From a virus: DNA of 26,027 nucleotides. Position numbers and translations under genes: made by a program. Below are positions 4,888-15,439 of the stretch, in pieces. The DNA lies in the IMG/VR virus record IMGVR_UViG_3300021137_001035, positions 1-26,027 of that record; one strand, written 5' to 3'. Within the stretch, counting starts at the first letter, position 1; each line of letters starts with the position of its first letter. The notes beneath the pieces are model-generated. The model was given only the letters and a program-made list of their open reading frames with translations, did not search any database and was not told where the DNA came from.

Positions 4888-4930
4888 GAAAAAGCGGAGG
4901 TAATTTCAATTTACGCTAAATTACCTCCAC
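4888..4930 (-). terminator. Rho-independent terminator after the 3'-phosphatase gene
   Basis: A perfect 11-bp stem (GGAGGTAATTT at 4896-4906, AAATTACCTCC at 4918-4928) with an 11-base loop. On the minus strand it is followed by GCTTTTTC, a five-T run. It begins just downstream of the stop codon at 4938 and upstream of the next promoter (4755-4782), so it insulates the phosphatase transcript from the 348-residue gene. Confidence 0.85.
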
Positions 4931-4937
4931 TAGATAT

Positions 4938-5458: not shown

Positions 5459-5466
5459 TATAAATA
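5459..5466 (+). promoter_or_regulatory. TATAAATA element, T4-late-promoter-like
   Basis: An exact match to the T4 late -10 octamer TATAAATA on the plus strand. Transcription would start near 5472, eight bases before a GGAGG ribosome site (5480-5484) that serves a GTG at 5493. It faces into the 3' end of pstS. AT-rich DNA can give such octamers by chance, so the case rests on the spacing to the ribosome site and small open frame. Confidence 0.35.
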
Positions 5467-5571: not shown

Positions 5572-5585
5572 TAGTCAACCATTGA
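5493..5585 (+). CDS. Possible 30-residue peptide antisense to the pstS 3' end
   Basis: A plus-strand frame beginning GTG ACA CAC and reading MTHCRSVKVSYIFKTP and on for 30 residues to TGA at 5583-5585. GGAGG lies eight bases before the GTG, and an exact TATAAATA lies 26 bases before the GTG. The last 11 bases overlap the pstS coding region in antisense. The peptide matches nothing known to me. The expression signals are better than the protein evidence, so it is a candidate only. Confidence 0.3.
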   Translation: MTHCRSVKVSYIFKTPSLTQNNTSQLVVNH

Positions 5586-6573
5586 TTTCGGATAACACTT
5601 GTCTCTGCACAGACTCAGGTAGAGGCACGTAGTCCATGTCCAGAGCCAGCTTGCTGCCATGTGCATAAACCCAGGCGATCCAGTTAGCAACCAATTTAGA
5701 CTGAGCAGGGTTCTGTGCATCCCGGGGCAGCAGCAGGTATGTGGCGCTCACAATGGGCCAGCTTGCTGAGCCAGGCTGGTTGATAATGTCCACTGACCAG
5801 TTCTTGGCGTGAGCCCAGTCGGCATTCTGTGCAGCAGCCTGGAAACTTGCTGCGGTAGGGGACACCCACTTGTGGTCTGCATTTTGCAACTGAGTTGTAA
5901 TGAGATGGTTGCTGCTGGCGTAGACACTTTCCACATATCCAATGCCGCCGCGAACCTGCTTGACTGTGGCACTAACGCCATCGTTGCCCTTGGCACCGTT
6001 ACCGGTGGGCCATTTTACGCTGGTGCTGGCTCCCACGGTCTTGGCCCAGTCAGTGCTTACCTTGCTGAGATAGCTGGTCCACACGTAAGTGGTGCCACTT
6101 CCATCGGCACGATACACAGGCGCAATGGCCAGCATAGGCAGAACTTTATCGGGATTTAGAACCTGGATGGCTGGGTTATTCCAATTGCGAATCTTGCCGC
6201 TGTAGATGTCAGCCAACACTGCACCCGTGAGCCTCACTTGGTTGGTTTCCACTCCGGGTATGTTGACAATCACAACCACCGCACCCATAACGGTAGGCAC
6301 TTGACTGAGATGATTTTCTACCAACTTGTCAGCTGACACCGGTGCATCACTTGCACCAAAGTCTACTGTGCGGTTGAAAATTTGATTTTGTCCGCCGCCG
6401 CTGCCAATAGCTTGGTAGTTGAGCTCTATGTTGATAGCTGTTTTGGTAGCTTCACCCCACTTGGCGTAAAGTGGGGCTGGAAAAGTTGCACCTGCCCCGT
6501 TAATTTGTTGTGCCGATGCAGCAGTCGACATCAGCAACAACGCAGTTGCTAATACAATATTAGATATTTTCAT
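5575..6573 (-). CDS. pstS: Phosphate-binding periplasmic protein PstS
   Basis: High-affinity phosphate-binding protein of the PstSCAB transporter. Residues 1-21 form a Sec signal peptide (hydrophobic LATALLLMSTAASA, cleavage before QQ), and the mature protein starts with the family signature INGAGATFPAPLYAKW. Phosphate-contacting segments are visible: GATF near 27, IGSGGGQNQIF near 56, DFGASDAP at 71-78 and RADGSGTTYVW near 155. The length of 332 is normal and the gene appears intact. AAGGAG lies six bases upstream of the ATG. No pstC, pstA or pstB accompany it, so the product should feed the host transporter during infection, as proposed for cyanophage pstS. The gene is visibly more GC-rich than the flanks at 2.7-5.5 kb, suggesting recent acquisition from a proteobacterial host. 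Confidence 0.93.
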   Translation of the reverse strand: MKISNIVLATALLLMSTAASAQQINGAGATFPAPLYAKWGEATKTAINIELNYQAIGSGGGQNQIFNRTVDFGASDAPVSADKLVENHLSQVPTVMGAVVVIVNIPGVETNQVRLTGAVLADIYSGKIRNWNNPAIQVLNPDKVLPMLAIAPVYRADGSGTTYVWTSYLSKVSTDWAKTVGASTSVKWPTGNGAKGNDGVSATVKQVRGGIGYVESVYASSNHLITTQLQNADHKWVSPTAASFQAAAQNADWAHAKNWSVDIINQPGSASWPIVSATYLLLPRDAQNPAQSKLVANWIAWVYAHGSKLALDMDYVPLPESVQRQVLSEING

Positions 6574-7257: not shown

Positions 7258-7304
7258 TTTGTTCTCCTTATAATACAAGCTTACGCTGTCACAATGATAA
7301 GGTC

Positions 7305-7339
7305 AAAAAGAAACCCTGCATAACGCAGGGTTTCTTTTT
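7305..7339. terminator. Bidirectional rho-independent terminator
   Basis: A perfect 15-bp inverted repeat with a five-base loop: AAAAAGAAACCCTGC (7305-7319), ATAAC, GCAGGGTTTCTTTTT (7325-7339). The GC core is flanked by A-tract and T-tract, so each strand ends in a U-run after the stem. On the minus strand it stops transcription coming from the methyltransferase gene before mazG. Confidence 0.92.
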
Positions 7340-7390
7340 GGTTTAATTAATTTGTAATAATCAAGATCAATAAAACCTATATATTAATTT

Positions 7391-9064: not shown

Positions 9065-9340
9065 TTAGTCTTTGCCAAGAAACTTTTTAGCATATGCGTC
9101 GGCATAATTTTCAAGATTCTGTTGAAAATAATCAACACCTGCTGCGTTGTGCAGGCTTGGGGTTTTAGCTATGCTGTTGGCAATGATGTTGGGCAACTGG
9201 CCTTCAATCATGTCCAATATTCGACGTCGCTCGGTTGGACTCATATCTTTTGACCAATGTGCAAGTCTTTCTGCAACCATTCCCGACAGTTGCACAGCTA
9301 ACTCACCCAGTTGTCTATTAAAGTCGCTGTGGGTAGACAT
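9065..9340 (-). CDS. Small helical protein with hairpin-occluded ribosome site
   Basis: A 91-residue, largely alpha-helical protein (MSTHSDFNRQLGELAVQLSG, then MSPTERRRILDMIEGQLPN). No known family. The ATG is preceded by AGGAG at 7-base spacing, but that site lies inside the 3' arm of a 17-bp hairpin (9346-9391), and a TATAAT box lies in the 5' arm. Translation therefore probably depends on which promoter made the transcript, a layout known for T4 late genes such as lysozyme. It heads the leftward set 9065-8417. Confidence 0.65.
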   Translation of the reverse strand: MSTHSDFNRQLGELAVQLSGMVAERLAHWSKDMSPTERRRILDMIEGQLPNIIANSIAKTPSLHNAAGVDYFQQNLENYADAYAKKFLGKD

Positions 9341-9345
9341 AGATT

Positions 9346-9391
9346 ATCTCCTATAACAATTTATTAATTTTAACAAATTATTATAGGAGAT
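9346..9391 (-). promoter_or_regulatory. 17-bp RBS-sequestering hairpin with embedded TATAAT
   Basis: ATCTCCTATAACAATTT (9346-9362) and AAATTATTATAGGAGAT (9375-9391) are inverted repeats around a 12-base loop. The one mismatch is a G.U pair in minus-strand RNA but C-A in plus-strand RNA, so the minus transcript pairs fully. AGGAG of the 9065-9340 gene is buried in the 3' arm. The 5' arm contains TATAAT (9380-9385, minus strand), with TTTATA 17 bases further upstream; initiation there would start in the loop and omit the 5' arm, freeing the ribosome site. Confidence 0.8.
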
Positions 9392-9476
9392 TTCAATATA
9401 GATATAAAGGCGTATACCAGTTCGTGTTGACAAACTTGCCAAACACTACTCTGCTGCGGAAGTTGAGGCAGTTCGC

Positions 9477-9806
9477 TTAGGTATTGCGTAGTTTAAATTC
9501 AACCAATTTCAAATCATCATCGGGGATAACTACACCAAAGCTCGGACTATAGTAACTGACATGTGTCAAATCGTCGCCAATGTCCACAAACGTGTCTTTG
9601 TTGGGAGGTAGAACAAACATATCGGCGTTGTAACCAATAAATCGAAGATATTCTACATACGTTTTCAGACCTTGCCGGCCAGTGCACACATACTGTGTTG
9701 CCGATTTGTAGCTTGCAAACCCAAATTCATTTGCAAATTCGCGTAAGGTTTGCTCAAAAAACAAATACTTTAAGTTTTTGTTAGATCTTGCTAAGTTAAT
9801 ACGCAC
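9477..9806 (-). CDS. Unknown protein coupled to the VWA gene
   Basis: A 109-residue protein beginning at GTG (9804-9806), which overlaps the TAG of the VWA gene by one base (TAGTG) and has GGAG seven bases upstream. The sequence has a basic, aromatic N-terminal half (SNKNLKYLFFEQTLREFANE) and a beta-rich acidic C-terminal half. No known domain. Tight coupling to the metallopeptidase/VWA protein suggests it may be a partner or target of the MoxR/VWA pair; that is inference from position only. Confidence 0.65.
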   Translation of the reverse strand: MRINLARSNKNLKYLFFEQTLREFANEFGFASYKSATQYVCTGRQGLKTYVEYLRFIGYNADMFVLPPNKDTFVDIGDDLTHVSYYSPSFGVVIPDDDLKLVEFKLRNT

Positions 9807-11104
9807 TATACATCTCCAATCTCTTCAACACCCTTGCTGTGCTCATAATAAGCAAAACGGCCAAAAGGTGGTTTAACACGAGTTTTGTATCCTTCTGTGA
9901 TTACCCAAAGAGTATCACAGTAGTTTTCAGGTCCCCAAGTGCCATACGGAAACCCATCTGTGAACACCACAGCAAGTTTGGGCTCAATATGCTGGTCTTT
10001 CCAAAAATTCCAAAAAGCGTCAAAGTCGGTACCACCGCCACCTTTACATTGATACGACAGCAACTCGTCTTCACTGTCTTTAGTAAACTCTTTGTAGTTA
10101 TAAATTTTTGTATCAAAACATACAATACCAATTTTGAAGTCAGTGTAAAGCTTCATAATACCGTATATTTCGCTTAAAAAGTCTTTTGCCATTGCATCTG
10201 AAATAGATCCACTCATATCAATGGCAATTTGCAAATCAATTGTTTCGTCCTTGTCCAAGGTTGGCAAGAAAATTCCACTATACATATGTTTACGATTTGG
10301 ACGCATCCAAGTAAAATCGTCTACAACACAACTTTGAATGCTCTGTTGAAGCAAATCTCGCCAATTAACTTTTGATTCTACAAGTCCGTCGATTAAACGT
10401 TCTAAACTAGCAGGCATTTTGCCTGCGGCTGCGTTGGCAGCTTGCAAAATCTTGCCTCTCATTTCATCACGAATAGCTTTTAAGTCGGCATTTGTAAGTT
10501 TAATTTCGTTGCCATTGGCATCGCGAGCAACAATCTTGTCACTGCCAGCTGATCTGCTGTCGTCTCCTAACTCAAGATGTATATCCAGAGTTAGTTCTTT
10601 TTTAACCTTACGTTTTTCAAGATCATCGTAGACAGCTTCACTAGTCCATCCAATGTATTTGTCGTTGTACAATCCTACACGATGACTTTTGGTTTTTTTA
10701 CCAGAGTCATCAGTATCATCTACAGGTACTCGCTCAGTAGGCATCTTACCAATTTTATCTCGAATTAGCGCAGCATTGATCACGTAGTCGTTGGCCATGT
10801 TCCACCATTTTGGATCTCGGTGACTGCGACGACCAAAATGATCAAACGCTACATGTAGAAGCTCGTGACAAAGAACAAACTGAATCTCGTCAACATCAAG
10901 CTTTTTAAGGAAATCTCGGTTGTAGTAAATATAACGTCCGTCAACCGCAGCAGTTGCACACCACCCAGCATCTGTTGCATCTACCAATGGTAAATGCATA
11001 ATTAATGCACCAAAAAACGGCTGATTAAACAAGAGTTTAATCTTAGCCTGCTTCAGTTTTGTCTCTACTGGACTACGCTTAGTTTCTTGCGGCACGATTG
11101 GCAT
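9806..11104 (-). CDS. Putative metallopeptidase plus von Willebrand A protein (DUF2201-like)
   Basis: A 432-residue two-domain protein. The N-terminal domain has a zinc metallopeptidase-like motif HELLHVAFDH at 80-89 (HExxH with an extra His). A variable linker with a charged stretch (125-200) follows, then a VWA domain with a MIDAS motif: DMSGS at 296-300, GGTDF with Thr359, and FTDGFP with Asp383. This layout matches the VWA-like metallopeptidase proteins usually paired with MoxR-type AAA+ ATPases, and such an ATPase lies immediately upstream. AAGGAGG is four bases before the ATG, and a TTGACT-N16-TACAAT promoter drives it. Cytoplasmic; no signal peptide. MoxR/VWA pairs act as chaperone or maturation systems; the client here is unknown. 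Confidence 0.87.
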   Translation of the reverse strand: MPIVPQETKRSPVETKLKQAKIKLLFNQPFFGALIMHLPLVDATDAGWCATAAVDGRYIYYNRDFLKKLDVDEIQFVLCHELLHVAFDHFGRRSHRDPKWWNMANDYVINAALIRDKIGKMPTERVPVDDTDDSGKKTKSHRVGLYNDKYIGWTSEAVYDDLEKRKVKKELTLDIHLELGDDSRSAGSDKIVARDANGNEIKLTNADLKAIRDEMRGKILQAANAAAGKMPASLERLIDGLVESKVNWRDLLQQSIQSCVVDDFTWMRPNRKHMYSGIFLPTLDKDETIDLQIAIDMSGSISDAMAKDFLSEIYGIMKLYTDFKIGIVCFDTKIYNYKEFTKDSEDELLSYQCKGGGGTDFDAFWNFWKDQHIEPKLAVVFTDGFPYGTWGPENYCDTLWVITEGYKTRVKPPFGRFAYYEHSKGVEEIGDV

Positions 11105-12913: not shown

Positions 12914-13178
12914 TTGTCAATAGATACACTTTGAAGCGATCGGTCTTAAACATTGCATTTAGTTTTTCAGCTAAGTTGTGTGCGTGGCCAGAATTAGAAA
13001 ATGAACATTTTTTGTATTTTGGCCCAGGATAATCAAGCAGTTTGTTTAGACTACGGAGATTAATCGGTTGATCGTCCAAGAATACCGCGTATATACCTTC
13101 GGCCATAAGAACTTGTTCGCTCTTATAAGTTTCTGAATCTGTATAATCTAATAATACGGTAGGCTTTGGTCGGCTCAT
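12885..13178 (-). CDS. Unknown protein, 97 residues
   Basis: Begins MSRPKPTVLLDYTDSETYKS. The ATG at 13176-13178 is chosen over one four codons upstream because GGAG lies six bases before it. Just upstream on the minus strand is GATAAATA (13194-13201), 7 of 8 matches to a T4 late octamer. The product looks like a small alpha/beta protein (VLLDYTDS, YAVFLDDQP, FKVYLLTNGEI), which might be a nucleotide- or metal-binding fold, but no motif decides. Function unknown. Confidence 0.65.
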   Translation of the reverse strand: MSRPKPTVLLDYTDSETYKSEQVLMAEGIYAVFLDDQPINLRSLNKLLDYPGPKYKKCSFSNSGHAHNLAEKLNAMFKTDRFKVYLLTNGEIITENL

Positions 13179-13193
13179 GGGGTTCTCCATGAA

Positions 13194-13201
13194 TATTTAT
13201 C
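13194..13201 (-). promoter_or_regulatory. GATAAATA element, possible late-type promoter
   Basis: Minus-strand GATAAATA, 7 of 8 to TATAAATA. Initiation six bases downstream would give a leader of about 10 bases that begins at the GGAG ribosome site of the 12885-13178 gene. Suggestive only. Confidence 0.35.
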
Positions 13202-14437: not shown

Positions 14438-15439
14438 TTAATCCGTATCCTGTTGAGACTGTAGCAAGCCACCTGCATAAACAGAGCTAAAACATGTACT
14501 ATACTCTGCACTAGTTTTCTCAATCTTTACCAACCCATGTCGATTGCAAAATTTAATAAGCGACAGTCCAACTTGACGTCGCGGTTCAACTATAATGTTT
14601 GTTCTAACAATTTCGTTAAATTTCTCTAGTAAATCTGCAGGTTGCCGGTTAAGATCAATTAAAAGTCGATTACGTTCAAAATCGTCTTTTACACGATGTT
14701 CAATGCCTTCATGGTCAATCCATTTGCTGAGCATAAGATTGTTCCAAGCAAACCCTCGATTATAACGATCTTCATATGCTTCTTGTAATTTTTTAGTTCT
14801 TACACCAGGATACGCACTCATTACATTGTCACCATCGTCGCCGCGCATACATTTTTCAAACAACAACCATTCCGGATCAGGTACTGGCATATCGTTGCCC
14901 TGCTTATTTTTAGCAATCTTACCATCTTTGTCAAAAATACCGTCCTTGGTAAGGAGTAGGCCAGATATACCATTGTAGATCATAACATTTTCAGAAATTA
15001 ATTGCTGAAAGTCACTGTCGCTACTGATAACAATGTGTGTATCAGTAGGATGCAAACTAATCCATCTTGCAACCATATCGTCTGCTTCAGCTTCTGGATG
15101 CCGTAGCAACGTACAGTTTGTGTGATTTTTAATAAACTGTATGAACTCGTCCATAACTTCAAAGAAAACGTTGTCTTCTTCTACTTCTCGTGGAGTACGT
15201 TTAATAGCAGCAGCTTTTCTATTGGCCTTATAAGGTGTATATACATCTTTGCGCCAGCTTCGGCCTTCTAGGCAAAATACAGTATGATTGGCATCAAATT
15301 GATTCCAAACTTTTTTAATACTAGAAAAAATTATATGAAGTGCCAGCGCCAGCTGTTGCTCTGTGTCAGGCGCTTTTACTCCATGACGTACACGTTGAAA
15401 TAGATTCTGAGTGTCAATAACAATGTATGTTTGCGGCAT
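14438..15439 (-). CDS. 5'-3' exonuclease/flap nuclease (T4 RNase H/FEN-like)
   Basis: A 333-residue PIN/FEN-superfamily nuclease that removes RNA primers and 5' flaps during phage DNA replication. The acidic metal-binding motifs are in order: VIDTQN with Asp9; RKDVYTPYKANR (63-74), the arch/helical gateway residues; EAEADD at 116-121; SSDSDF at 139-144; and RGDDGDN at 199-205, followed by PGVRTKK, the helix-three-turn-helix DNA-binding element. The length is typical of T4 Rnh. A near-perfect promoter (TTGACA-N16-TATAAT) lies just upstream. The ribosome site is weak (GGA). It acts with the phage replisome in the cytoplasm. Confidence 0.9.
   Translation of the reverse strand: MPQTYIVIDTQNLFQRVRHGVKAPDTEQQLALALHIIFSSIKKVWNQFDANHTVFCLEGRSWRKDVYTPYKANRKAAAIKRTPREVEEDNVFFEVMDEFIQFIKNHTNCTLLRHPEAEADDMVARWISLHPTDTHIVISSDSDFQQLISENVMIYNGISGLLLTKDGIFDKDGKIAKNKQGNDMPVPDPEWLLFEKCMRGDDGDNVMSAYPGVRTKKLQEAYEDRYNRGFAWNNLMLSKWIDHEGIEHRVKDDFERNRLLIDLNRQPADLLEKFNEIVRTNIIVEPRRQVGLSLIKFCNRHGLVKIEKTSAEYSTCFSSVYAGGLLQSQQDTD

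Follow-up and report, generated by a model that had tools for sequence, protein, structure and literature searches.

The closest described systems are those of phage T4. In the long transcripts of T4 genes e, soc, 49, I-TevI and segB, a helix buries the Shine-Dalgarno (SD) sequence or the AUG, and a promoter in the region of the 5' strand of that helix yields RNA without the strand (PMC3014915, PMC2988022). The promoters of these known cases are late promoters (TATAAATA), and in a review the genes under promoter-in-hairpin control are all late (PMC2988022 section 12). The early promoters of T4 carry GTTTAC -35 elements and have been called exceptionally strong (PMC3014915). In the window, by which we mean the whole 26,027-nt stretch of viral DNA analyzed here, the gene for a 91-aa protein has the same layout, with a helix modelled to bury the SD. 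However, its promoter is sigma-70-like and likely not late, with a TTGAAA -35 unlike the GTTTAC of T4 early promoters. We consider it probable that the leader of this gene acts in cis as a translation switch that admits RNA from the gene's own promoter only, here in a non-late version. The features concerned are as follows:

9065 to 9340, minus strand: open reading frame of the 91-aa protein, the gene under proposed control
9346 to 9367 and 9370 to 9391: arms of inverted repeat I1, the longest of nine inverted repeats in the window
9346 to 9366, minus strand: 3' arm of the hairpin (inverted-repeat search and fold)
9348 to 9352, minus strand: SD AGGAG, within the 3' arm, 7 nt before the ATG at 9340
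9371 to 9391, minus strand: 5' arm of the hairpin, overlapping the predicted promoter (inverted-repeat search and fold)
9391 to 9396, minus strand: -35-like TTGAAA, aligned in contigs L001, L003 and L004, similar in L065 and L084
9367 to 9372, minus strand: -10-like TAAAAT with TG before it; start predicted near 9360
9380 to 9385, minus strand: TATAAT of the first-pass annotation, paired with TTTATA (9408-9403); start predicted near 9373
9806 to 11104, minus strand: VWA-type gene upstream of the 91-aa gene, with a promoter-like TTGACT-16-TACAAT at 11159-11132

Hairpin and ribosome binding site

The first-pass annotation had described a 17-bp hairpin with a single imperfect G·U pair and the AGGAG of the 91-aa gene in its 3' arm. 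The hairpin and the AGGAG (9352-9348) were recovered, but the computed fold of minus-strand RNA 9391-9346 has 21 pairs (9391-9371 with 9366-9346), a 4-nt loop (9370-9367) and two G·U pairs (9380 with 9357, 9374 with 9363), at -24.2 kcal/mol. None of 200 shuffles folded equally well (z -8.6), and z was -5.8 with wider flanks. When the ribosome binding site (RBS) was fixed and the upstream sequence alone was shuffled, none of 1000 shuffles concealed the RBS as well (p 0.001). The counterparts of the G·U pairs on the plus strand are mismatches, and the plus-strand RNA of the repeat does fold more weakly (-16.0 kcal/mol), in keeping with the annotation's proposal of selection on the sense RNA; this asymmetry amounts to two transitions, expected about 1 time in 4 by chance, and is weak evidence. 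The plus-strand AGGAG in the other arm serves no gene there, because no ATG, GTG or TTG follows it at a suitable spacing. Rfam covariance models gave no match at the gathering score.

RNA from upstream promoters would contain both arms, form the 21-pair hairpin, bury the SD and give no 91-aa protein. Polymerase starting at a sigma-70-like promoter over the 5' arm, either near 9360 (TTGAAA-18-TAAAAT) or near 9373 (TTTATA-17-TATAAT), would make RNA without this arm and with an accessible site, and expression of the 91-aa protein would thus track the local promoter only. In modelled RNAs, the cost of opening the RBS was 19.0 kcal/mol in the long form versus 4.7 in the short form (18.3 versus 4.2-4.4 kcal/mol in a longer context), and it was 4-5 kcal/mol in short RNA from either predicted promoter. 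The modelled probability of an unpaired SD was 0.00 in the long RNA and 0.37 in the short RNA. As modelled, then, the long RNA would sequester the SD as in switches of the T4 e and soc type, and the predicted promoters (9396-9367 and 9408-9380) are placed so that their transcripts would lose the 5' strand. The annotation's logic that read-through RNA is hidden and local RNA open draws strong support from this accessibility, from recurrence of the arrangement by compensating arms and from the T4 positive controls, the last two described below. Read-through transcription from the VWA-type gene is plausible, because the scan found no terminator-like site on the minus strand from the end of the upstream gene (9477) to the hairpin (9391); the promoter-like TTGACT-16-TACAAT is its likely source.

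An AU-rich stem over an RBS could also be a transcription terminator, an mRNA-stabilizing stem or an RNA thermometer. We regard this as highly improbable, given that the terminator scan found no terminator-like site at 9346-9391 and no U-run follows either arm, that at -24 kcal/mol the stem would make a very stable thermometer, and that the predicted short RNA from the local promoter would be without the stem. In PeSL (promoter-early stem-loop) cassettes of T4-type phages, a sigma-70 promoter stands beside a stem-loop that is a transcription terminator. The window locus resembles these cassettes in that a sigma-70 promoter adjoins a stem-loop, but its stem has no U-run or terminator-like site and covers the RBS.

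Predicted local promoter and its likely timing

The hairpin shares sequence with two sigma-70-like sites, TTTATA-17-TATAAT (9408-9380) and TTGAAA-18-TAAAAT (9396-9367), and RNA from either would begin past nearly all of the 5' arm. The second aligns in register with TTGAAT-17-AATAAT in L001 and L003 and with TTGAAA-17-TATCAT in L004, giving a form kept among relatives, TTGAA(A/T/C)-17/18-(TAAAAT/AATAAT/TATCAT); L065 carries TTGAAT-18-TATTAT and L084 TTGAAC-17-TATCAT. Upstream of genes in G000, G001, G004 and G005, TTGAAA occurred nine times in the sense orientation and never in the antisense. TTGAAA-18-TAAAAT is the likelier promoter of the two, because it is aligned with the promoter elements of the relatives. 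The TATAAT in which the annotation placed the promoter does lie in the 5' arm (9385-9380), but it falls out of alignment with the relatives' conserved -10 and is the less probable promoter.

The annotation had also likened this gene to the timing switch of T4 lysozyme. In a switch of that type the local promoter would be late, leaving the gene silent early in infection and active late. The layout is that of T4 e and soc (PMC3014915) and a late-like TAAATA motif exists in these phages, but neither TAAATA nor a T4-type late promoter TATAAATA was present in the leader of the 91-aa gene, and the promoter elements of the relatives are of the TTGA type. In the window, TATAAATA occurs once, at 5459 of the plus strand. 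In addition, genes with a TAAATA hairpin and a recognized function mainly encode structural proteins, holins or homing endonucleases, whereas those with a sigma-70 hairpin have metabolic roles. We therefore consider a late switch unlikely; since the local promoter is sigma-70-like and lacks TAAATA, the late timing of e and soc is not transferable. A gene confined to early or middle times, or merely insulated from read-through, is the more likely reading of the sequence. A switch of this sigma-70 form would keep the gene on as long as its own promoter is active and silent on later read-through RNA, the mirror of T4 e and soc. We infer the start sites, the translation and an early or middle local promoter, with late or read-through RNA silent; the proposed timing follows the promoter class.

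Relatives of the gene

The 91-aa gene is present in about 30 contigs, and relatives of its protein, 57-82% identical, occur in many phage contigs; annotated phages had no relatives of the DNA segment or the protein. The protein had no PHROG or Pfam match and is predicted to be all-helical (AF2 mean pLDDT 90.5), with no PDB match to the model at E<=0.001 in a fold search. Covariation in related phages, which the annotation had proposed as a check, was seen on exchanging upstream and downstream arms among relatives, a measure that needs no alignment. The native mean across 17 members was 9.98 versus 5.5 kcal/mol for swapped arms (0 of 20,000 permutations); among the 10 promoter-bearing members, 0-1 of 20,000 permutations did as well. 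In the shuffle test of RBS hiding, 20 members combined gave p 1e-10. L001 has an identical protein and a different leader, yet its different 5' arm still pairs with the SD (p 0.001), and in L065, L067, L093 (p 0.001 each) and L094 (p 0.005) unrelated hairpins bury the SD, the ATG or both. Promoters or hairpins are also present in L004, L068 and L084, although their pairing was not significant in this test (p 0.11-0.39), and distant family members lack it. Members without a recognized promoter had weaker hairpins on average, a modest association (p 0.03).

The 46-bp near-palindrome overlaps the promoter and might instead work at the DNA level, for example as an operator for a dimeric repressor, with incidental RNA pairing. 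However, relatives differ in arm sequence yet retain the pairing and its placement with respect to the start codon, and in L067, L093 and L094 the stem extends into the start codon instead, which makes a DNA-level function hardly probable. It is similarly improbable that the repeat is a neutral inverted duplication. Near-perfect AT-rich palindromes can form by template switching in replication, and L001 combines an identical protein with a different leader; against this, several relatives have unrelated hairpins at the same gene, there is a genome-wide excess of such hairpins, and both these phages and T4 show an association of them with promoters (below).

Two minor observations concern these leaders. 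In L067 (2700-2775), L069 and L077, a hairpin TTGACATGCACA/TGTGCATGTCAA holds the start codon in its stem with no clear SD, so that the short RNA would be nearly leaderless. An open stretch RRIPVRVDKLAKHYSAAEVEAVRLGIA* lies antisense in the leader of the window gene (9408-9488, plus strand); it is missing from L001, L003 and L004, no homolog was found, and it is possibly a gene remnant or an insertion.

T4 and the related phage records

In T4, the RBS-hiding shuffle test was positive for e, soc, 49, I-TevI, segB and I-TevII (p 0.002-0.01) and negative for genes 23, 36, hoc, 32 and regA. Among the 167 annotated minus-strand starts scanned (NC_000866), matches were found for 11 of 32 with an early-type promoter, 5 of 16 with the late motif and 2 of the 119 that had neither (early-type versus no promoter, p 5e-7 as called, with gene 49, a known late case caught by the loose early pattern, among the 11). 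About 10 genes have an early-promoter hairpin, ndd.4 and e.8 having less certain start or promoter assignments. In the following, the 5' arm of an RBS-hiding hairpin lies over the early promoter GTTTAC...TAnnnT (T4 NC_000866 coordinates), in the -35 to -10 region:

8161, minus strand: motB.2
13130, minus strand: modB
53885, minus strand: nrdC.8
62740, minus strand: regB
65355, minus strand: denV
123032, minus strand: alt.-3
130253, minus strand: 30.8
136275, minus strand: alc

In these eight genes, as in the window gene, a sigma-70-type promoter contains the 5' arm within its -35/-10 region. For the T4 early hairpin genes, modelled RBS opening cost 11-22 kcal/mol in the long RNA and 0.1-3 kcal/mol in the short one, and among unselected early genes 10 starts exceeded 11 kcal/mol versus 1.1 in arm swaps. 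A search of literature outside subscription sources found no report of an early-promoter form of RBS-hiding hairpins. In the group with neither promoter, gene 1 (75374, minus strand) has an RBS-hiding hairpin with TGCTTCA upstream of TATAAT, elements that look like a MotA-type middle promoter.

The survey covered the window and six relatives, in records of up to 519 kb, with genes outside T4 called by a simple script. Without prior input, upstream k-mers gave two promoter signals, TAAATA and TTGAC/TTGAA. The RBS was hidden better than in all 60 upstream shuffles at 68 of 824 intergenic starts (13.5 expected), and a local promoter was found in 47 of 86 hairpin genes versus 262 of 738 others (p 0.0009). 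The RBS was freed in 94% of predicted short RNAs of hairpin genes against a null of 83%, a relief that is partly expected, since leaders are short at most promoters of these phages. Among unselected genes, opening exceeded 11 kcal/mol at 18 starts versus 3.2 in arm swaps for the sigma-70 class, 18 versus 3.5 for the TAAATA class and 12 versus 4.4 where no promoter was called; hairpins without a recognized promoter numbered 27 of 515 (8.4 expected). Genes with and without a promoter showed no clear difference in mean RBS opening; the hairpin signal belongs to a subset of genes and is visible in the tail counts and the arm swaps. Among TAAATA-hairpin genes, the assigned PHROG functions include portal, head-tail adaptor, virion protein, tail fiber, holin and homing endonucleases, and sigma-70-hairpin genes include tRNA nucleotidyltransferase, exonuclease, RtcB, MazG, a MoxR ATPase and a methyltransferase. 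The 91-aa gene belongs to this second, non-late group. For comparison, the promoters described in jumbo phage CBB comprise an RpoD-like class, a second class with a TGAAACG -35 close to genes for DNA synthesis, and a late class with ATAAATA (PMC5259590).

On balance, we lean slightly toward the view that leaders with the promoter inside a hairpin serve early, middle and late genes in T4 and in its distant giant relatives, tying translation generally to the promoter from which an RNA came, and that the early/sigma-70 form, silent once its own promoter is off despite read-through, has gone unrecognized even in T4. Because phage transcripts often span many genes, the timing of a protein is not explained by promoter timing alone; a leader of this kind would let each gene disregard read-through RNA. 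The T4 version has been described as a property of late genes, and wide use by early and sigma-70 genes would make it a general rule of phage gene control, testable at once in T4. RNA level would then be a poor guide to protein level for such genes.

Several further observations were made in these records. The full 8-mer TATAAATA was not enriched over a reversed control, whereas TAAATA upstream of genes was. A pattern scan for TCTCCTATA...TATAGGAGA returned 58 stretches, many seemingly chance or coding and some like the window layout, and was excluded from the evidence. Strong RBS-hiding hairpins carry the late-like TAAATA in their loop or 5' arm at G001:19844, G004:33782, G002:285284, G007:393725 and other sites, structural, holin and homing endonuclease genes among them. 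TAAATA also stands directly upstream of a 96-97-aa family (MSRPKP...) in four of four phages (window 13178-13200, minus strand; G001:13985; G004:73816; G005:19421), three of which have RBS-hiding hairpins there. In G002, a 25-kb stretch of the minus strand (38-63 kb) holds eight perfect TTGACA-N16-TATAAT promoters (control 0) and is probably an early region. Other inverted repeats of the window are AGCGGAGGTAATTT/AAATTACCTCCACT at 4893-4931 and, at 7304-7340, a strong terminator-like stem with a T-rich stretch after it on the plus strand. The window also encodes a T4-type RNA ligase 1 (1026-2279), a PstS-like phosphate-binding protein (5575-6573) and a 5'-3' exonuclease (14438-15439), and by its appearance it is part of the genome of a T4-like giant phage.
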